A DNA stretch of 52,234 nt, taken from assembly GCA_002843035.1 (NCBI GenBank), contig PHEV01000004.1:1-52234 (forward strand). Reading direction: 5' to 3'. Below are positions 5,504 to 12,844 of the stretch, one piece after another. The notes beneath the pieces were generated by a model. The model did not search any database. It was not told where the DNA came from and saw only the letters and a program-made list of their open reading frames with translations. Every line of letters begins with the position of its first letter. Position 1 is the first letter of the stretch. The DNA comes from Actinobacteria bacterium HGW-Actinobacteria-5 (GTDB taxonomy: Bacteria; Actinomycetota; Actinomycetes; Propionibacteriales; Propionibacteriaceae). The position numbers and the translations under genes were made by a program.

Positions 5504-5521
5504 GTACCCCCGGGGGTGTAC
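5504..5521. promoter_or_regulatory. CsoR/CstR-type operator candidate upstream of tusA
   Basis: The site reads GTACCCCCGGGGGTGTAC and contains a perfect 12-bp palindrome ACCCCCGGGGGT (5506-5517) with TA steps on both sides. From memory, operators of the CsoR/CstR/RcnR family are G/C tracts flanked by TA or AT, of the form TACCCC...GGGGTA. CstR members sense persulfides and control sulfur-relay genes of the TusA/DsrE type. The site is 55 bases upstream of the tusA ATG, where it would overlap the promoter. No CsoR/CstR gene lies in this window, so the regulator would have to act in trans. Confidence 0.6.
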
Positions 5522-5576
5522 GCTTCTGGGTGTCCGGACGGAGTTGTCCGGTTCAGAAAGAGGAGTGCTGAGGACA

Positions 5577-5837
5577 ATGTCCGCAACCATAGAAGAGCTG
5601 AAGTCGATTGCCACCCCCGTCGTCGTCGACGCGCGGGGCGTCTCGTGCCCGGGTCCGATCCTGGCCGCCAAGAAGCAGATCGGCGGCGTGTCACTGGGGA
5701 ATGTCATGGAGGTCCTCGCGACCGACTCCGGCACGCTGAAGGACATCCCGGCGTGGTGCAAGAAGATGGGCCACGACTACCTGGGCTCGTTCGAAGAGGC
5801 CGGTGCGATCCACCTCTTCCTCCGCAAGGCCAAGTAG
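5577..5837 (+). CDS. tusA: TusA-family sulfur carrier protein
   Basis: An 86-residue protein with the TusA signature around C24 (RGVSCPGPILAAKK, the CPxP motif), where a persulfide is carried on the cysteine; a second cysteine, C61, lies in AWCKKMG. Length and fold pattern match the family. The ATG at 5577 is chosen because it leaves the usual short N-terminus and has AGAGGAG at 5560-5566 and GAGGA closer in. TusA proteins hand sulfane sulfur to DsrE-type partners and to Hdr-like complexes. Here it is the first gene of a seven-gene unit containing exactly such partners, behind a persulfide-regulator-like operator. Confidence 0.9.
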   Translation: MSATIEELKSIATPVVVDARGVSCPGPILAAKKQIGGVSLGNVMEVLATDSGTLKDIPAWCKKMGHDYLGSFEEAGAIHLFLRKAK

Positions 5838-5840
5838 GCC

Positions 5841-6269
5841 GTGTCCGGAGCTGCCGAACCCGCGGCGGACACTCCGCGGGTCCTCGTCTTCTCCACCATC
5901 AACATCTCCGATCCGGGCATCGACCTGGCCGGGAGCCGGCACCTCGAGTACCCCGCCACCGTGCAGACGATGGCCGTACCGTGCAGCAGCGGGCTCAAGC
6001 CGTCCTGGCTCGTTCACGCGCTGGAGAGCGGCTTCGAGGGCGTCTTCGTCGCCTCTGATGGTGAAGAGTGTGCCTACCTGCCCGATTGCGCCGAGCGAAC
6101 CGCGGCGATCATCGACAGGGCCCAGGCGATGATGAGCGAACGGGGCATCCCCGCCCAGCGCCTCAAGATGGCCGCCCTCTGCTCGGTGTGTGCCGAGCCG
6201 TTCGCCAACTACATGCGCGAGTTCTCCGCGACCCTCACCCGACTCCGGACCCCGGTCCCGGTCGGCTGA
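5841..6269 (+). CDS. MvhD/FlpD-like iron-sulfur electron-transfer protein with altered cysteine set
   Basis: This 142-residue protein resembles the MvhD family (methyl-viologen-reducing hydrogenase delta subunit), a small Fe-S protein that passes electrons to HdrA and also occurs as the C-terminal domain of QmoB. The blocks VQTMAVPCSSGLKPSWLVHA and SDGEECAYLPDCAERT fit the family core. However, the N-terminal cysteines usually seen before the DLAG block are absent: the region reads STINISDPGIDLAG. The cysteines present are C48, C77, C83, C114 and C117, the last two in an unusual LCSVC motif near the C-terminus. The GTG start lies 3 bases after the tusA stop, so the two genes are probably coupled. 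Cluster type and partner are inferred. Confidence 0.72.
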   Translation: MSGAAEPAADTPRVLVFSTINISDPGIDLAGSRHLEYPATVQTMAVPCSSGLKPSWLVHALESGFEGVFVASDGEECAYLPDCAERTAAIIDRAQAMMSERGIPAQRLKMAALCSVCAEPFANYMREFSATLTRLRTPVPVG

Positions 6270-6303
6270 GCGTCCCCCCACGACAAGGAAGTCAGGAAAG
6301 GCG

Positions 6304-6783
6304 ATGGCAAAGAAGACCATCATTGTGTTCAGTGGCGACTACGACCGGCTGATGGCCGCGTTCATCATCGCCAACGGAGCTGCGGCCATGGATGACGAGG
6401 TCACCATGTTCTTCACGTTCTGGGGCCTGTCGGCACTGCGGAAGGTGAACCCGACCGCGACACCCAGCAAGAAGAAGAGTGGCTTGCAGACGGCTTTCTC
6501 AACAATGCTGCCGAAACACGCCGAGAAACTCACACTTTCCAAGTTCAATTTCGGCGGCGCCGGCCGCTTCATGATGAAGAAGGTCATGAAGGCCGAGAAT
6601 GTCATGACCGTTGCGGAATTGCTGGACACGGCGCGGGAGCAGGACATCAAGCTGATCGCCTGCACGATGTCGATGGACGTCCTCGGCATCAGCAAGGAAG
6701 AGCTGATCGACGGCATCGAGTACGCCGGCGTCGCCACCTACCTGGGCGAGGCCGACGAGGCCAACGTCAACCTGTTCATCTGA
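6304..6783 (+). CDS. DsrE/DsrF-like family protein (DsrE2-like sulfurtransferase)
   Basis: A 159-residue protein of the DsrE fold. It begins with the typical KKTIIVFSGDYDRLMAAF, has a FFTFWG block at 36-41, and carries the likely sulfur-binding cysteine C120 in the characteristic motif LIACTMSMDVLGI. DsrE2-like proteins exchange sulfane sulfur with TusA. The middle (residues 50-105) is rich in Lys and Phe and encoded by noticeably AT-richer codons than the neighbours. The ATG has AGGAAAG just upstream. It lies 34 bases after the MvhD-like gene and 38 bases before the HdrA-like gene, in the same transcription direction. Confidence 0.85.
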   Translation: MAKKTIIVFSGDYDRLMAAFIIANGAAAMDDEVTMFFTFWGLSALRKVNPTATPSKKKSGLQTAFSTMLPKHAEKLTLSKFNFGGAGRFMMKKVMKAENVMTVAELLDTAREQDIKLIACTMSMDVLGISKEELIDGIEYAGVATYLGEADEANVNLFI

Positions 6784-6821
6784 TCACCGGCCGCATGCCG
6801 CGGCGACAAGGAGCGTGTGCG

Positions 6822-9545
6822 ATGGACTACGACGTCCTCGTAATTGGCAGTGGTATCGGCGGAATGGAGTCGTCGATCAAGTTGGCCGACATGGGCTACC
6901 ACGTCCTGCTGGTCGAGAAGGAGGCCAGTGTCGGCGGCCGGATGATCCTGCTCAGCAAGGTCTTTCCGACCCTGGACTGCGCGTCCTGTATCTCGGGACC
7001 GAAGATGTCCTCGACGATCAACCACCCGAACATCACCACGATGGCCTACAGCCAGGTGGAGGGCATAAGCAGAAATACCGATGGCGGGTTCCATGCCTCT
7101 ATTCGGCAGAAGTCGAAGTTCGTCGACTGGGCCGCGTGCACCGGCTGTGACGCATGCCAGAAGGCCTGCACGGTAGCCGTTCCGGACCAGTTCAACGCGG
7201 ATCTCGCCGCCCGCAGGGCTGCGTACATCGCGTTCCCGCAGGCAGTGCCGAAGAAGGCAGTGCTACAGCGCGAGGGCACCTCGCCGTGCGTGGGCGCCTG
7301 CCCGGCAGGGATCAAGGCCCACGGCTATGTGTCGCTGGTGCGCTCGGGCAAGTACGAGGAGGCCTTCCAGCTCGTCCTCGACGCCACCCCGCTGGTCGGC
7401 ACCCTCGGCCGCGCCTGCTACGCGCCGTGTGAGGCGGACTGCACGCGGGCCAAGCTCGAGGGCCCCGTGCCGATCCGGCTGATCAAGCGCTTCGCCGCCG
7501 ACAAGCACTACGAGGCGTCCGGGCAGTCCGACGGCCGAGCGGTCGAGGTCGAGGAGCCCAACGGCCACAAGATCGCCATCGTCGGCTCCGGCCCGGCGGG
7601 GCTGACTGCCGCGTGGCAGCTGGCCCGCAAGGGCTACCAGGTGAAGATCCTGGAGAAGCGGTCGAAGCCGGGCGGCTACCTGCGCCACGCGATCCCGACC
7701 TACCGGCTGCCGCACGAGGTCGTCGACGCCGACATCGCGAACCTGACCTCGCTCGGGGTGGAGATCGAGTGCGGCGTGTCGGTCGCCGATCCCCAGGCGC
7801 TCAAGGATGACGGCTACGACGCCGTGATCCTGGCCACGGGCACCCAGGTCGCCACCCGCATGGACGTGCCCGGCGAGGACGCGGAGGGCTCGGTCAACGG
7901 CCTGGACTTCCTGGCTGACGTCGCCAACGGCGCCGCTCCTGACCTCCGCGGCAAGCGGGTCGTCGTGGTGGGCGGGGGCAATGTCGCCATGGACGCCGCC
8001 CGGGTGTCGCTGCGCCTCGGCGCAACCGAGGCACGGGTGGCCTACCGGCGCACCCGCGCCGAGATGCCCGCCCACCATGTCGAGAGCAAGGACGCCGAGG
8101 CCGAGGGTGCGGTGTTCGAGCTGCTCGTCGCGCCGACCGAGGTGGTCACCGCCGGGGGGCGCGTGACCGGGCTGAAGCTGCAGAAGATGCGGCTGGGCGA
8201 GCCGGACGCGTCCGGCCGTCGCAGCCCCGAGCCGATCCCGGGCAGCGAGTACGTGCTGGACTGCGACCTGGTCATCTCCACCATCGGGATGAGCCCGGAC
8301 TCCGCTCCGTTCGCCCCGCTCGCCGACAAGCGCGGCCGGGTGGCGGTCGATCCGAAGACCCTGCAGACGTCGGTGCCGTTCCTGTTCGCGGCCGGCGACG
8401 TGACCGCGGGGGCCACCGACATCACCCGGGCGATCGGCTCCGGCCGCCGCGCGGCGCACATGGTGGACCGGTGGATCACCGGGCAGCCGCTGGACGGGTT
8501 CACCGCCCTGGACGACCGTCTGGAGACGATCTCCACCGACACCGTGCTGTCCCGGCAGACCGCTTTCGGCCACCGGCACCCGATCAGCGGCGACGTCTCG
8601 CTGGTGCACAACCCGCGCGACTTCTCCGAGATCGAGGCTCCGCTCACCGAGGACCAGGCCCGGTCGGGCGCCGGGTCGTGCCTCGACTGCGGCGTGTGCT
8701 CGGAATGCCAGGAATGCGTGAAGGCCTGCCCGGCCTTCGCGATCCGGATGGACGCCCGCGACGAGCTCCGCGACGTGACCGTCGGAGCCGTTGTGGTCGC
8801 CACCGGGCACAAGCTGTTCGCGGCCGACCTGAAGCCCGAGTACGGGTTCGGGAAGTTCCCGAACGTGATCACCGGCATGCAGATGGACCGCCTGCTGGCC
8901 CCGACCCGTCCGTTCAACACGGTGCTGCGTCCCGGTGACGGCAAGGTCCCGGACCGGATCGCGTACATCTCGTGCACGGGCTCCCGCGACAAGACCGTCG
9001 GCAACCCGCTGTGCTCGAAGTTCTGCTGCATGTACTCGATCAAGCAGAACCAGCTGATCATGGGCGCCCTGCCGCTGGCCGACGTGAGCATGCACTACAT
9101 GGACATGCGGGCATCGGGGAAGCGGTACGAGGAGTTCTACACCCAGGCCAAGGACATGGGCGCGCAGTACATCAAGGGTCGGGTCTCGAAGATCACCGAG
9201 CAGGAGAACGGTGACCTGCTGGTCCGCTACGAGGACATCGAGAACGGCGGAGGCGTCGTCGAGACGTCCTATGACCTGGTGGTGCTCGCGGTGGGCATCC
9301 AGCCCAACCGGGACGTGGAGCGCCTGTTCGACGAGGCGCCGCTCGGGCTCGACGAGTACTACTACGTCGCAGAGCCGAGCGCGGAGCTCAGCCCCGGCCA
9401 GACCACCATCCCCGGCGTCTTCGTTGCCGGCACGGCCTCGGGTGCCAAGGACATCGTGGACACGATCCTGCACTCCGGCGCGGCGGTCGCCCAGGTGGCC
9501 GCGCACCTCGAACACCAGCACTTCACCGAGGAGGTGACGGTATGA
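6822..9545 (+). CDS. HdrA/QmoA-like flavoprotein with inserted GltD-type NAD(P)H oxidoreductase module
   Basis: This 907-residue protein has nested architecture. Residues 1-116 begin an HdrA fold: FAD motif GSGIGG (9-14), the HdrA block LDCASCISGPKM (C53, C56), and a ferredoxin motif at C106, C109, C112 and C116. Residues of about 150-560 form a complete GltD-like unit: Fe-S cysteines C156, C160, C199, C203 and C207, FAD motif GSGPAG (255-260), NAD(P)H motif GGGNVAMDAAR (384-394) and AAGDVTAG (523-530). The HdrA fold then resumes with C620-C636 and the block CTGSRDKTVGNPLCSKFCC (718-736). GltD units oxidise NADPH, so electrons could enter the complex here. ATG 6822 with AAGGAG at 6808-6813 is the start. 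The 3' end overlaps the next gene by 4 bases (ATGA). Confidence 0.87.
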   Translation: MDYDVLVIGSGIGGMESSIKLADMGYHVLLVEKEASVGGRMILLSKVFPTLDCASCISGPKMSSTINHPNITTMAYSQVEGISRNTDGGFHASIRQKSKFVDWAACTGCDACQKACTVAVPDQFNADLAARRAAYIAFPQAVPKKAVLQREGTSPCVGACPAGIKAHGYVSLVRSGKYEEAFQLVLDATPLVGTLGRACYAPCEADCTRAKLEGPVPIRLIKRFAADKHYEASGQSDGRAVEVEEPNGHKIAIVGSGPAGLTAAWQLARKGYQVKILEKRSKPGGYLRHAIPTYRLPHEVVDADIANLTSLGVEIECGVSVADPQALKDDGYDAVILATGTQVATRMDVPGEDAEGSVNGLDFLADVANGAAPDLRGKRVVVVGGGNVAMDAARVSLRLGATEARVAYRRTRAEMPAHHVESKDAEAEGAVFELLVAPTEVVTAGGRVTGLKLQKMRLGEPDASGRRSPEPIPGSEYVLDCDLVISTIGMSPDSAPFAPLADKRGRVAVDPKTLQTSVPFLFAAGDVTAGATDITRAIGSGRRAAHMVDRWITGQPLDGFTALDDRLETISTDTVLSRQTAFGHRHPISGDVSLVHNPRDFSEIEAPLTEDQARSGAGSCLDCGVCSECQECVKACPAFAIRMDARDELRDVTVGAVVVATGHKLFAADLKPEYGFGKFPNVITGMQMDRLLAPTRPFNTVLRPGDGKVPDRIAYISCTGSRDKTVGNPLCSKFCCMYSIKQNQLIMGALPLADVSMHYMDMRASGKRYEEFYTQAKDMGAQYIKGRVSKITEQENGDLLVRYEDIENGGGVVETSYDLVVLAVGIQPNRDVERLFDEAPLGLDEYYYVAEPSAELSPGQTTIPGVFVAGTASGAKDIVDTILHSGAAVAQVAAHLEHQHFTEEVTV

Positions 9546-11326
9546 GCCAGGAGACCCCTGAGCCGAAGGCAGCGCCGCAGCAGCGTCGGATCGGCGTCTA
9601 CATCTGCCACTGCGGAGGCAACATCTCCGACTACGTGGACGTGGCGGCCGTGCGTGAGGCACTGAAGGACGAGCCCGGCGTCGTGGTGTCGGAGTCGCCG
9701 GTGTTCGCCTGCTCCGACGGCACCCAGCACGACATGATCGACGACATCCGCGCCCAGAACCTGGATGGACTGGTGGTCGCGTCCTGCTCGCCGAAGCTGC
9801 ACCAGGTGACGTTCCGTAACGTCGCCAAGCGCGCCGACCTCAACCAGTACGCCTACACCCAGGTGAACGTGCGCGAGCAGGACTCCTGGGCACACCCGCA
9901 CGACCGGGCCGGCGCGACCGAGAAGGCGATCGGCCTGGTCCGCGCCGGGGTGGCGAAGACGCGACTGTCCGATCCGCTCGAGCCGCTGCGGATCGAGACC
10001 GTGCCCAGGGCCCTGGTGGTCGGCGGCGGGATCGCGGGACTGCGTGCCGCGATCGGGCTGGCCGACGTGGGAATCCAGGCGGTCGTGGTGGAGCGGGAGT
10101 CCCGGCTTGGCGGCTGGGTGGGACGGTTCGGCCCCACCTTCCCCGACGAGGCGTCCGGTGCCGAGGAGGTGGCCGGGCTGGTCGAGCAGATCAAGGCCCG
10201 CCGCGACATCACGGTGTACACGAACGCCGAACTGACCGGGAAGTCGGGCACGTTCGGCAACTACGCCGCGCAGCTCACCCTGCACCGGGACGGCTCGGAC
10301 AAGCAGCTCACCGTCGACGTCGGCTCGATCATCGTCGCCACCGGCTTCGACTCCTATGCCCCCGACGAGGGCGAGTTCGGCTACGGCATCGACGGCGTGG
10401 TCACGCTGCCGGAGTTCAAGGAGCTCGTGGACGCGGCCCCGGCCGGCACGCTCAGCTACCGCGGACGCCCGGTGCGCTCGATCGCCTACGTCTACTGCGT
10501 GGGCTCGCGGCAGGAGGCCCCCGGCAACGAGTACTGCTCGAAGTACTGCTGCACGGCGACCATCCACGCGTCGATGCTGGTCTCGAAGCTGGATCCGGGG
10601 ATCCGCCAGTACCACCTGCACCGCGACATCCGTGCCTACGGGCGCAACGAGTTGCTCTACAACGAGTCGCGCGACCGCGGGTCGATCTACCTGAAGTTCC
10701 CCGACGACACCCCGCCGTCGGTACAGAAGGAGGCGTCCGGCGGTCTGAGCGTCACCGTGACCGACCTGCTCACCGAGAGCCGTGAGCTGACCCTCCCGGT
10801 CGACCTGGTGGTGCTGGTCACCGGCATGGTGCCCAGGGAGAACTCCGATCTCGTCCAGGTGCTCAAGCTCCCGGTCGGAAGCGACGGGTTCTTCAACGAG
10901 ATCCATCCCAAGCTGCGTCCGGTGGAGACGGTGGTCGACGGCGTGATGATCGCCGGCTGCTGCCAGAGCCCGCGCACGGTGGGGGAGAGCGTCGCTGCCG
11001 GGCTGGCCGCGGTTGCGCAGAGTGCCGCGCTGCTGAAGAAGGGCTTCGCCGAGCTCGAGCCGCTGGTCGCCCGGGTGGACCCGGAGAAGTGCGTCGGCAG
11101 CGGTGAGTGCCTCACGTCGTGCCCGTATGACGCGATCACCAGTATCGAGTGGGACGGCCGCCAGGTCGCCACGGTCGATCCGGCCACCTGCAAGGGCTGC
11201 GGTGGCTGTGTGCCGGTCTGCGGTTCGGACGCGATCGACCTGCTCGGCTACACCGATGCACAGATGAGGGCCGCGATCGAGGAGATGATCGCGACCGACG
11301 TACCAGTCAAGGAGCCGGTGGGATGA
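9542..11326 (+). CDS. HdrA/QmoB-like flavoprotein with C-terminal ferredoxin domains
   Basis: A 594-residue HdrA homologue, the flavin and Fe-S electron-distributing subunit of heterodisulfide reductase and Qmo complexes. Features in order: N-terminal HdrA domain with GVYICHCGGN (C22, C24), C57 and C82; FAD motif GGGIAGLRAA (161-170); the block CVGSRQEAPGNEYCSKYCC (319-337); then two ferredoxin motifs. The second is complete (C550, C553, C556, C560). The first reads CVGSGECLTSCP, so the expected second cysteine is serine 520, which may leave a 3Fe or altered cluster. It lacks the fused MvhD domain of QmoB, but a free MvhD-like protein is encoded upstream. Four-base ATGA overlaps at both ends indicate translational coupling. 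Confidence 0.88.
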   Translation: MSQETPEPKAAPQQRRIGVYICHCGGNISDYVDVAAVREALKDEPGVVVSESPVFACSDGTQHDMIDDIRAQNLDGLVVASCSPKLHQVTFRNVAKRADLNQYAYTQVNVREQDSWAHPHDRAGATEKAIGLVRAGVAKTRLSDPLEPLRIETVPRALVVGGGIAGLRAAIGLADVGIQAVVVERESRLGGWVGRFGPTFPDEASGAEEVAGLVEQIKARRDITVYTNAELTGKSGTFGNYAAQLTLHRDGSDKQLTVDVGSIIVATGFDSYAPDEGEFGYGIDGVVTLPEFKELVDAAPAGTLSYRGRPVRSIAYVYCVGSRQEAPGNEYCSKYCCTATIHASMLVSKLDPGIRQYHLHRDIRAYGRNELLYNESRDRGSIYLKFPDDTPPSVQKEASGGLSVTVTDLLTESRELTLPVDLVVLVTGMVPRENSDLVQVLKLPVGSDGFFNEIHPKLRPVETVVDGVMIAGCCQSPRTVGESVAAGLAAVAQSAALLKKGFAELEPLVARVDPEKCVGSGECLTSCPYDAITSIEWDGRQVATVDPATCKGCGGCVPVCGSDAIDLLGYTDAQMRAAIEEMIATDVPVKEPVG

Positions 11327-11601
11327 CCCAGACACTGCGGGACCCGCGCGAGGTGATCCGCGAGGAGCCCCTCATGCACAGGCCGATCTTCGAGGCGCTC
11401 GCTTCGGGCCCGGCCACCATCGTCGAGATCGCCGAGCGGATCGGGCACCCCGTGCACGAGACCGTGTACTGGGTGATGGGGATGCGCCGCTACGGGCACC
11501 TGATCGAGAGTGCCGAGGCCGACGACGACGGCTTCTTCAGCTACAAGATCGTCGGCCAGGGCGAGGCCGAGGCCCCCCTCGAGGAGTGTGAGTACGAATG
11601 A
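11323..11601 (+). CDS. Small winged-helix-like protein of the Hdr/Qmo-like cluster
   Basis: A 92-residue protein coupled on both sides by ATGA overlaps. Residues 18-62 (RPIFEALASGPATIVEIAERIG, then a second helix ending MRRYGHL) look like a helix-turn-helix, and the following FFSYKIV stretch could be the wing. The C-terminus is acidic and contains one cysteine. Being embedded between two structural subunits with translational coupling suggests equimolar production, so it may be a scaffold or assembly subunit rather than a regulator. No ligand or DNA site can be assigned; a regulator of this operon remains possible. Confidence 0.6.
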   Translation: MTQTLRDPREVIREEPLMHRPIFEALASGPATIVEIAERIGHPVHETVYWVMGMRRYGHLIESAEADDDGFFSYKIVGQGEAEAPLEECEYE

Positions 11602-12776
11602 CCACCGTGGTGAATCCGAACCTGATCACCGACCTGCAGAAGTTCGGGGCGACGGACATCAACGCCTGCTTCAGCTGTGGCAACTGCACAGCGATCTGCC
11701 CGCTGACCGACGACGACGCCCTGTTCCCGCGCAAGCTGATCCGCCTCGCGCAGGTGGGCCTCACCGATGACCTGGTCGGCAGCAAGGAGCTGTGGACCTG
11801 CTACGGGTGCGGCGTGTGCACCACCCGGTGCCCCCAGTCCGCCGATCCCGGCGAGTTCATGGGGACGGCACGTCGCTACGCGATCGCCCACTACGACAAG
11901 AGCGGCATCGCCCGGGCGATGTACACGCGTCCGGTGATCAGCAGCGCGATCGTGATCGGGGCTGCGGCGTTCTTCGCCCTGTTCTTCGCGGCGATCCGCG
12001 GTGAGCAGAGCCGGGATTCGCTGGCGCTGTTCGACTTCATTCCCTACTCCGTGATCCACACCACCGGCATCGTGCTGATGGTCGTCGTGGCGCTGTTCAG
12101 CCTGCTCGGCGTGGGCCTGCTGGCCCGCAACATCGCGCGCAGGGACGGAGTCACGCGGGAGGCGCTTTTCGGCAGCAAGCAGGCCTGGGCACGCACCGGG
12201 CGGGCGCTCTGGTACGCGCTGGGCATCGAGTCGCTGGGCCAGAAGCGGTACCGCGACGACTGCCACGACGACGAGCCGGTGGAGCCGCTGTACCGGCGGC
12301 GCTGGCTGATCCACGCGCTGACCATCTGGGGCTTCCTCGGGCTGCTGCTGGCCACCACGCTCGACTACGGGATGGATGTGCTGGGGATCAAGGCGACCGG
12401 CACGCCGGTGCCGATCTGGTACCCGGTGCGGCTGCTGGGCACGGTGGCCGGCCTGGCCCTGATGTACGGCGTGACCTGGTTCATGGTGCGGCGCTGGCAG
12501 GCCAACCGGGAGTGCAACGACGACAGCAAGCCCTCTGACTGGCTGTTCCTCGTGCTGCTGTGGGTGACCGGCCTGACCGGGTTCATGATCGAGGCCGCCC
12601 TGTACGCCGCGCCGGTGCCCGCGTGGGGATACTGGGTCTTCCTGGTGCACGTGGCGATCGCCATGGAGCTGGTGCTCTTCCTGCCGTTCACGAAGTTCGC
12701 CCACGCCATGTACCGGCCGGTCTCGCTGTTCTTCTACGGGCTGGCCCGGCAGAAGGACTCCCAGCCGGTCGGATAG
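11598..12776 (+). CDS. QmoC-like membrane subunit: HdrC ferredoxin domain fused to cytochrome b (HdrE-like)
   Basis: A 392-residue protein. The soluble N-terminus has two complete 4Fe-4S motifs (C24, C27, C30, C34 in CFSCGNCTAICP; C68, C71, C74, C78 in CYGCGVCTTRCP), the HdrC pattern. From about residue 110 onward come six hydrophobic segments with histidines suited to bind heme b, in VIHTTG, WLIHALTIWG, LVHVAIAMEL and FAHAMYRP. This HdrC-HdrE fusion defines QmoC, which exchanges electrons with menaquinone. There is no HdrB-type CCG cysteine motif. It is the last gene of the unit; a strong hairpin follows 30 bases after the stop. Confidence 0.88.
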   Translation: MTTVVNPNLITDLQKFGATDINACFSCGNCTAICPLTDDDALFPRKLIRLAQVGLTDDLVGSKELWTCYGCGVCTTRCPQSADPGEFMGTARRYAIAHYDKSGIARAMYTRPVISSAIVIGAAAFFALFFAAIRGEQSRDSLALFDFIPYSVIHTTGIVLMVVVALFSLLGVGLLARNIARRDGVTREALFGSKQAWARTGRALWYALGIESLGQKRYRDDCHDDEPVEPLYRRRWLIHALTIWGFLGLLLATTLDYGMDVLGIKATGTPVPIWYPVRLLGTVAGLALMYGVTWFMVRRWQANRECNDDSKPSDWLFLVLLWVTGLTGFMIEAALYAAPVPAWGYWVFLVHVAIAMELVLFLPFTKFAHAMYRPVSLFFYGLARQKDSQPVG

Positions 12777-12806
12777 CCGAACACCGGCCCGGGCGACGAT
12801 CACCGC

Positions 12807-12844
12807 AACGCCGAGGGCTCGCAACCGTGCGAGTCCTCGGCGTT
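12807..12844 (+). terminator. Long hairpin terminating the Hdr/Qmo-like operon
   Basis: A 17-bp stem (12807-12823 with 12828-12844, one G-T pair) with an ACCG loop starts 30 bases past the qmoC-like stop. No T-run follows, as is common in high-GC bacteria. The rest of 12777-12971 shows no gene. Confidence 0.65.

Follow-up and report, generated by a model that had tools for sequence, protein, structure and literature searches.

The window, a 52,234-nucleotide stretch of actinobacterial contig PHEV01000004.1, carries an operon of seven genes on one strand (+). The genes tusA (5577-5837), mvhD/flpD (5841-6269, GTG start) and dsrE2-like (6304-6783) are followed by an hdrA/gltD fusion of the HdrL type (6822-9545), a second hdrA (9542-11326), a gene for a small winged-helix (wHTH) protein (11323-11601) and a qmoC-like gene (11598-12776). 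Gaps of 3, 34 and 38 bases give way to three 4-base ATGA overlaps, with the wHTH gene overlapping both of its neighbours. The palindromic operator GTACCCCCGGGGGTGTAC (5504-5521), a putative CsoR/CstR-type site, lies upstream, and a hairpin (12807-12844, + strand) with 17-base arms, 94% complementarity, a loop of 4 and no T tract lies 3' of the operon. A promoter/terminator scan found nothing, with 0 canonical terminators vs 2.1 in shuffled sequences, and the palindrome at 5504-5521 was absent from the list produced by a repeat finder over the window. The gene order, gaps, overlaps, palindrome and hairpin given by an earlier, sequence-only reading of this DNA were exact to the base. By eye, the operon is flanked directly by a dehydrogenase-like gene on its upstream side and, downstream, by a short gene that resembles a membrane sensor.

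Family-level names were backed by Pfam and NCBIfam for all operon proteins except the wHTH protein. TusA is a sulfur carrier with a CPGP motif (PF01206, 70 bits) whose Cys24 was kept in 75/75 aligned sequences; it scored 52 bits with the TusA equivalog model of NCBIfam, under the 78-bit cut-off. The DsrE2-like sulfur carrier (PF13686, 199 bits) scored 90 bits with the NCBIfam SulfCarrDsrE2 model, under the 210-bit cut-off, and its Cys120 was kept in 47/47 full-length rows of an alignment of proteins of 140-190 aa. MvhD is a [2Fe-2S]-type HdrA partner (PF02662, 86 bits) with five cysteines kept in 75/75 aligned sequences; that it is split off as a separate gene was read correctly. The HdrA/GltD fusion has a GltD module (FAD/NADPH, Fe-S) inserted in HdrA, and the second HdrA has an N-terminal cysteine domain, an FAD domain and a C-terminal 2x[4Fe-4S] domain (Pfam/NCBIfam). 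An HdrA interrupted by a GltD-like NAD(P)H module and accompanied by MvhD in the same operon is the HdrL arrangement. The wHTH protein had no Pfam or NCBIfam match. Its AlphaFold2 model (mean pLDDT 85.3) is ordered helix-helix-helix-helix-strand-strand, and Foldseek returned many winged-helix neighbours, all of them weak (best E 1.6e-3, none <0.001). W50, M52, M54 and Y57 were invariant in 12/12 aligned sequences, and the protein is probably a structural subunit. Pfam identified neither a lipoyl protein among the seven operon proteins nor an HdrB-type (CCG) subunit. HdrB had been reported missing here, and it is missing from the operon; a search elsewhere in the host genome found four CCG-protein genes on other contigs.

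The last gene product combines an HdrC 2x[4Fe-4S] domain with a membrane haem-b-type domain (PF02665, NCBIfam qmoC). Its architecture matches QmoC, as had been proposed, but it scored 196 bits vs the 300-bit cut-off of the NCBIfam qmoC equivalog NF038018; the QmoC-like proteins of two relatives scored 202 and 222 bits against the same cut-off. Among 41 aligned sequences, four cysteines were kept in 41 and four in 40. The QmoC-type haem-ligand histidines were kept in this alignment, with His239, His351 and His369 in 41/41 and His154 in 85%.

The best 80 of at least 553 confirmed HdrL relatives were used as the locus set. All other six genes were found on the same strand in 66/80 of these loci, and 10 of the 14 incomplete loci are cut off by the end of a contig. 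Carriers include Propionicimonas (the host genus), Cellulomonadaceae, Chloroflexota, Desulfotomaculum-type Bacillota and Acidobacteriota, and the position of dsrE is reshuffled among conserved loci. The gene set is not a chance association, because it recurs, partly reshuffled, in 66 of the best 80 loci and in several phyla; it is a conserved cross-phylum module. As a specificity control, the stretch around each of 11 more distant HdrL loci (L040-L050, 36-45% identity) was searched, and no match to tusA, dsrE or the wHTH gene was found. The operon had been presented as a Qmo-like unit in an actinobacterium. The closest genus-named relative among the matches listed was Propionicimonas sp. D180 (90% over the HdrA/GltD fusion), and the actinobacterial origin of the operon is confirmed, but the module is not peculiar to an actinobacterium.

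The terminus of the module varies. Among the same best 80 of at least 553 relatives it was QmoC-like in 40 loci and HdrC plus a CCG protein in 30; the label of single-CCG protein for the QmoC place was taken from the one such protein that was profile-scanned. Phyla are mixed on the tree, on which 9 rows whose end could not be assigned were placed in no terminus group and L074, with an incomplete fusion, was omitted. The link to NADPH varies as well. In the host fusion the NADPH motif GGGNVAMDAAR and YRR are both intact, and among the best relatives listed NADPH-like motifs occurred in 59/82 aligned fusion rows and NADH-like motifs in 19. Judged from these motifs, NADPH coupling is plausible in the host species, in line with the sequence-only reading. 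It is not obligatory, however, because both motifs were lost in 6/12 operon-bearing genomes of the host genus; the three motif-less loci checked (L051, L052, L068) kept a quinone-type subunit. With a variable terminus and an NADPH site missing from half of the congeners that carry the operon, what stays constant in the module is its sulfur side.

The palindrome contains an exact 12-base palindromic core, ACCCCCGGGGGT, within 5504-5521 and 55 bases before tusA. It has the form of CsoR/CstR operators and is a putative binding site. The pattern TACCCCNNGGGGTR started from the site in the window and was broadened once the first sites had been inspected; it matched 8 sites in the host genome, the window site being one of them, and 0 in a reversed control. 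Of the remaining seven sites, five stand before operons that encode a rhodanese domain; two of these operons encode a persulfide-dioxygenase-like protein and a CoA-disulfide reductase-like protein (CoA-disulfide reductase-rhodanese), respectively. A gene for a SLAC1/TDT-type anion channel also lies behind a TACCCCNNGGGGTR site, and the site on contig C127 has no evident sulfur gene. A site is found no more than 2 kb away from five of the eight rhodanese loci (binomial P ~2e-9, with a pattern widened post hoc). The persulfide-dioxygenase label comes from architecture, the best NCBIfam match being GloB (59 bits, cut-off 201), with 27 bits vs a cut-off of 625 for the sulfur dioxygenase model. As in a CstR-type persulfide regulon, the operon and persulfide-handling genes have a site in common. 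The host genome is a MAG (98.9% complete, 3.6% contamination), so the contigs with other operator sites could in part be foreign.

A candidate regulator is encoded on host contig C25. This CsoR-family homologue has two cysteines 29 apart and a glycine replacing the His copper ligand; its best NCBIfam match was the copper repressor RicR (48 bits vs a cut-off of 175). Its gene adjoins those for a thioredoxin and for a flavoprotein that matched a single NCBIfam model, one for SQR. Among the best 80 loci, the operator pattern was found upstream of tusA in 10/76 (shuffle mean 0.19, maximum 2), a descriptive count obtained with a pattern written after the loci had been viewed. L092 is one of the ten, and the remaining nine are made up of the window and actinobacterial loci; the other 66 lack the pattern. 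A similar site precedes tusA in close relatives. A CsoR-family gene lies within 400 bases in 8/79 loci. Four of nine CsoR-like flank proteins (L056 twice, L059, L102) have a Cys pair 29 apart and the His replaced by Ser, Gly or Tyr, and the other five, all from Bacillota, keep the His and miss the second Cys. In 20/79 loci an ArsR gene occurs no more than 3 kb away; ArsR-type regulators are also those of sHdr systems. The ArsR and CsoR families both include metal sensors. In Propionicimonas sp. D180, a type III SQR gene (595 bits against a cut-off of 525), a DsrC-like gene and a DsrE2-like gene are oriented divergently to the operon, and two operator copies lie in between. Neighbours pointing to a non-sulfur substrate would have told against the sulfur assignment; both the neighbours in relatives and the genes that share the operator indicate sulfane sulfur.

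The 98.9% complete host genome gave no match to aprA and a single 25-bit match to dsrA (cut-off 393), which is not credible. The latter is probably an assimilatory-type reductase, because it adjoins a gene reading by eye as CysH, and a reverse Dsr system in the host was rejected on the same match. The sequence-only reading of a Qmo/Hdr-like, sulfur-carrier-linked system lacking AprAB and DsrAB in the window is supported by the genome, where neither an aprA match nor a credible dsrA was found. AprA was over cut-off in 11 and not in 39 of the 50 carrier genomes covered (out of 80 carriers, the best 80 of at least 553). Desulfotomaculum copahuensis (L109), which bears the genus name of sulfate reducers, is also among those without AprA over cut-off, and draft gaps may therefore hide some AprA.

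The operon was compared with known systems as they are described in the accessible portions of the cited papers. The HdrA/GltD fusion itself was described as HdrL already in 2009 (PMC2702500). The HdrL/MvhD loci of Desulfobacterium autotrophicum (PMC2702500) and the large-HdrA loci of Desulfotomaculum reducens (PMC4759654) likewise have HdrA fused to a glutamate-synthase-like/NADH-binding module with MvhD adjacent, and some have a second HdrA and HdrBC; unlike the host operon, TusA, DsrE, winged-helix and QmoC-like proteins are not given for them in those portions. QmoABC of types I and II (PMC10504309) has two HdrA-type flavoproteins and an HdrC-HdrE fusion, as here, and type II is HdrA-like, occurs with or without Apr and Dsr and is flagged there as open in function. 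Unlike QmoABC, in which QmoB has a fused MvhD, the host operon has a separate MvhD, an inserted GltD, and sulfur carriers and a winged-helix gene of its own. The sHdr-LbpA systems of Thermomicrobium (PMC6776052) and Hyphomicrobium (PMC6067878), for which oxidation of sulfur compounds was proposed, also join an Hdr-like complex to TusA and DsrE carriers, but their hdrB genes and lipoate-binding proteins are absent from the host operon.

The YTD cluster (yedE-tusA-dsrEFH type II; PMC12998232, PMC13293266) similarly places TusA beside DsrE-family genes, but as described it lacks Hdr genes and the host operon lacks YedE, so that only two kinds of part overlap. It was rejected as an identification since YedE was found neither in the seven genes (Pfam) nor in their direct neighbours (by eye). 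CsoR-family/CstR regulons (PMC10318464) have a similar operator with a G/C tract and TAC/GTA ends, and CstR targets are often rhodaneses, sulfite exporters and SQRs. The cysteines of TTHA1953 (C39/C68) are likewise 29 apart, but the motif of TTHA1953 itself has no G/C tract, and NaHS elicited no response from this regulator (PMC10318464). An Hdr/Qmo-type target is not named for CstR/CsoR regulons in the accessible portion of that paper. The seven-gene assembly had been thought undescribed; no description was found in the accessible open PubMed Central literature, supplements excluded, although its HdrA/GltD fusion is the known HdrL.

We propose that the operon encodes a membrane-attached sulfur:electron-carrier oxidoreductase, induced by persulfide, that oxidizes sulfane sulfur with menaquinone as acceptor, and place the probability of this reading slightly above one half (about 0.52). 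TusA and the DsrE2-like protein, to judge from their families and kept cysteines, would carry sulfane sulfur as cysteine persulfides and deliver it to a core complex of HdrL, the second HdrA, MvhD and the winged-helix subunit. Electrons would travel via flavins and Fe-S clusters, first to the HdrC domain, then to haem b of the QmoC-like subunit and on to menaquinone, and in the host species also to or from NADP(H) via the GltD module. A build-up of persulfide would make a CsoR/CstR-type repressor release the operon, together with the rhodaneses, the persulfide-dioxygenase-like enzyme, the CoA-disulfide reductase-rhodanese and the SLAC1/TDT-type anion channel. Oxidation is the likelier direction: sulfane sulfur derived from sulfide would be disposed of without O2, the probable product being sulfite, and its electrons would enter the quinone pool. 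The operon probably feeds electrons from reactive sulfur into respiration. Against this proposal, the operon offers no HdrB-type (CCG) site for sulfur chemistry, and the CoA-disulfide reductase-type gene that shares the operator is just as compatible with disposal by reduction.

The strongest competitor runs in reverse: NADPH and/or menaquinol would reduce TusA/DsrE persulfide to sulfide, in detoxification or sulfur respiration by a fermenting actinobacterium. The NADPH-like and NADH-like motifs of the aligned fusions, the reductive family of the CoA-disulfide reductase-rhodanese and the sulfate reducers among the carriers speak for it, but the divergent SQR gene of D180 and the SLAC1/TDT and persulfide-dioxygenase-like genes behind the shared operator fit oxidation, and half of the genomes of the genus that carry the operon have lost the NADPH site, the three of them checked (L051, L052, L068) retaining a quinone-type subunit. 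We consider reduction unlikely, though a serious contender. Flavin-based bifurcation, in which electrons from NADPH or persulfide would go partly to menaquinone and partly to a low-potential carrier (ferredoxin, for example), is improbable. HdrA and GltD/Nfn-type modules, which have relatives by sequence in the PDB, bifurcate in other complexes, yet bifurcation at one site requires three partners, and one clade does without the NADPH site. Enterobacterial tRNA thiolation uses TusA, DsrE-type and DsrC-type proteins, so a biosynthetic sulfur relay for tRNA or cofactor thiolation, with the redox part only recycling carrier disulfides, was weighed; given the patchy presence of the operon (12/25 congeneric genomes), the mixing of phyla on the tree, a stress-type regulon and the lack of any thiolation gene noticed beside the operon in 12 loci viewed, it appears marginally less probable still. 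A Qmo complex serving APS reductase, in classical sulfate reduction or its reverse, has the QmoC-like and two HdrA-like subunits and the minority of AprA-bearing carriers in its favour, but was rejected as highly improbable by the aprA searches in the host and 50 carriers, the unfused MvhD and the qmoC score under cut-off.

The oxidative reading would extend beyond the host. Tentatively, and with the odds somewhat against it, a TusA/DsrE-fed HdrL-HdrA-MvhD module may constitute a third cytoplasmic route for the oxidation of protein-bound sulfane sulfur, in addition to reverse Dsr and sHdr, and its exits would be interchangeable (QmoC-like to menaquinone, HdrC-CCG, NADPH, NADH). Such a route would be independent of O2, DsrAB, AprAB and LbpA, would occur in many phyla and would serve ordinary heterotrophs as a respiratory module inducible by persulfide. 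Proteins that may be closely related to type II Qmo gain a gene set, a substrate class (sulfane sulfur) and a candidate regulator, with Actinotalea lenta, Cellulomonas and Desulfofundulus as named carriers to study. If the proposal is true, some heterotrophs and sulfate reducers would draw respiratory electrons from persulfides without oxygen, and marker-gene surveys that look for dsr, sox or sHdr would overlook such persulfide users.

The seven genes lie on one strand where the sequence-only reading had placed them, with gaps of 3, 34 and 38 bases followed by three ATGA overlaps. The operon is flanked upstream by a GC-tract palindrome (5504-5521) and at the other end by a hairpin with 17-base arms (12807-12844). 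In gene order, the products were assigned to TusA, FlpD/MvhD, DsrE_2, HdrA with an inserted GltD, HdrA, no family, and a QmoC/HdrC type. The protein with no family is predicted to be a winged helix (model pLDDT 85.3), with weak structural matches (best E 1.6e-3). Because its gene has 4-base overlaps with two structural genes, and Trp and Met residues are kept in the presumed recognition helix, we infer that it is a subunit of the complex and not a DNA binder. Cys222 of the QmoC-like protein (11598-12776 of the window) is not part of the Fe-S motifs and is shared by 41/41 aligned QmoC-like proteins.

The host genome (G000; 3.84 Mb in 295 contigs) is 98.9% complete and 3.6% contaminated. The hdrA/gltD fusion gene (HdrL type) was found in 12/25 congeneric genomes, counting that of the window, and in 1/393 other genomes drawn from the class (E 1e-120 or better). 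A phylum draw gave 20/396, the window's own again counted, more than half of these being a more distant HdrL kind. An alignment built from 11 fusion proteins was then used to scan named genomes; this gave at least 553 confirmed relatives, and the best 80 were kept. In the co-occurrence search that the sequence-only reading had proposed, iterated HMMs placed all six other genes nearby on the same strand in 66 of these best 80 loci. Ten of the 14 incomplete loci end at a contig end (L074, L085, L089, L097, L107, L117, L121, L127, L128 and L131). A same-strand dsrE was not found nearby in L060, L073, L082 and L095, and L060 and L073 also start near a contig start. A full-length dsrE (140 aa or more) was called in 50 loci; 23 have only a shorter DsrE-family gene, which makes dsrE the least constant part. 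Its position varies as well: before the fusion gene, after the winged-helix gene, or at the end. In 11 more distant HdrL loci (L040-L050, 36-45% fusion identity), tusA, dsrE and the winged-helix gene had no matches in the fetched stretches, several of which were short. The constant parts are TusA, HdrL, HdrA, MvhD, the winged-helix protein and an HdrC domain, in most cases together with a DsrE. In seven actinobacterial and Dormibacterota loci (L088, L106, L110, L112, L121, L130 and L132), additional dsrE-family genes and a second tusA lie upstream of the module. In Desulfofundulus thermosubterraneus the second hdrA is split across two frames in the assembly (L098:11706-13426).

The presumed sulfur carriers keep their cysteines, TusA Cys24 in 75/75 and DsrE Cys120 in 47/47 aligned rows. 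In Propionicimonas sp. D180, which falls in the host's genus group, genes for a type III sulfide:quinone reductase (SQR; 595 bits, cut-off 525, NCBIfam selenoprotein-subtype model), a DsrC/TusE-family protein and a second DsrE2-like protein are divergent from the operon (L055:4982-7444). The operon at L056, another relative's locus, is flanked by a CoA-disulfide reductase-rhodanese gene and two CsoR-family genes. Among 79 loci, a CsoR-family gene lies within 400 bases in 8 and an ArsR gene within 3 kb in 20. An easy sulfur reading is tempered by the scarcity of sulfur genes within 3 kb: SQR-like in 6/79 loci, rhodanese-like in 6 and DsrC in 1, from searches that partly match the same proteins.

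The candidate operator is shared with other sulfur genes of the host. The pattern TACCCCNNGGGGTR is a broadened form of the window's site, set once an initial search had shown rhodanese neighbours at contigs C24, C188 and C248. It occurs 8 times in the genome and never when read backwards; base composition alone predicts ∼1.4 sites per strand. Widening added three sites, two of which (C10, C5) are again upstream of operons with a rhodanese domain. Besides the site before the seven-gene operon, sites lie before a metallo-beta-lactamase/rhodanese gene with the architecture of a persulfide dioxygenase (C24:2930), before a short ORF and then a rhodanese (C188:10237), before a SLAC1/TDT-family gene (C188:1479), before a rhodanese (C248:2927), where a CoA-disulfide reductase-type gene begins whose product has a C-terminal rhodanese domain (C10:10314), and before DsbD-like, TlpA-like and rhodanese-bearing genes (C5:28655). 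At C127:6205-6218 there is no evident sulfur gene, and a 143-aa protein that matches no Pfam family begins ∼180 bases off. Five of the eight host rhodanese loci have a site no more than 2 kb away (binomial P ∼2e-9, ignoring the widening step). A comparable palindrome lies 58-202 bases upstream of tusA in the window and nine relatives. On C24, an OsmC gene lies upstream on the same strand, as does a second, degenerate palindrome. Two GC-tract palindromes are present in the promoter region of the persulfide-dioxygenase-like gene (L146:1400-1620).

At the copper-ligand positions, which in copper CsoR are Cys, His and Cys, a host CsoR-family homologue (contig C25) carries Cys, Gly and Cys. Its top NCBIfam match is the copper repressor RicR, under the cut-off. 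The gene has a thioredoxin gene on one side and, on the other, a flavoprotein gene whose sole NCBIfam match is an SQR model (55 bits, far under the cut-off).

Apr and Dsr partners were sought in the whole host genome, as the sequence-only reading had advised. aprA had no match, and dsrA gave a single 25-bit match against a cut-off of 393, adjoining by eye a CysH-like gene. AprA exceeded its cut-off in 11/50 carrier genomes, of which six belong to Desulfotomaculum-type Bacillota. Systems already known are HdrL (2009), Qmo types I and II, sHdr and the YTD cluster. A full-text literature search found no description of the seven-gene combination, in keeping with the sequence-only reading.

Among the best 80 of the at least 553 relatives, 40 loci have a QmoC-like last gene; 30 have an HdrC-type gene (∼100-190 aa) followed by a ∼300-350-aa relative of a single-CCG-domain protein, and 10 were assigned to neither type. 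On a quick maximum-likelihood tree the exit types require 5 changes, at least 4 of these forced by starred branches (shuffled mean 23); they are clustered by descent, yet were exchanged several times. The host's four CCG genes are all on other contigs, one (C160) in a neighbourhood that by eye is Lut-like. The pyridine-nucleotide motif of GltD, in 82 aligned rows, is YRR (NADPH-like) in 59, a Leu-Glu type that we would read as NADH-like in 19, and lost in 4.

In the simplest model, TusA and DsrE would pass persulfide to an HdrL-HdrA-MvhD core, and electrons would exit via HdrC and haem b to menaquinone and also via GltD to NADP. The module could instead run reductively, as the presence of an NADPH module and a reductive-type gene behind the same candidate operator would allow. 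We favour oxidation by about two to one on three grounds: a congener has an SQR gene next to the operon, the candidate operator also precedes persulfide-dioxygenase-like and SLAC1/TDT genes, and one clade lost the NADPH port and kept the quinone port. Of the 12 operon-bearing genomes of the genus, six (L001-L006) have an intact NAD(P) motif and six (L007-L012) have lost both the NAD(P)-binding glycine motif of GltD and YRR; those aligned still have the FAD-type GxGxxG motifs and Fe-S cysteines. The QmoC-like gene is kept in all three motif losers checked (L051, L052 and L068). NADPH is thus not obligatory for the module. The six host-genus genomes that lost the motif are a natural test of NADPH dependence.
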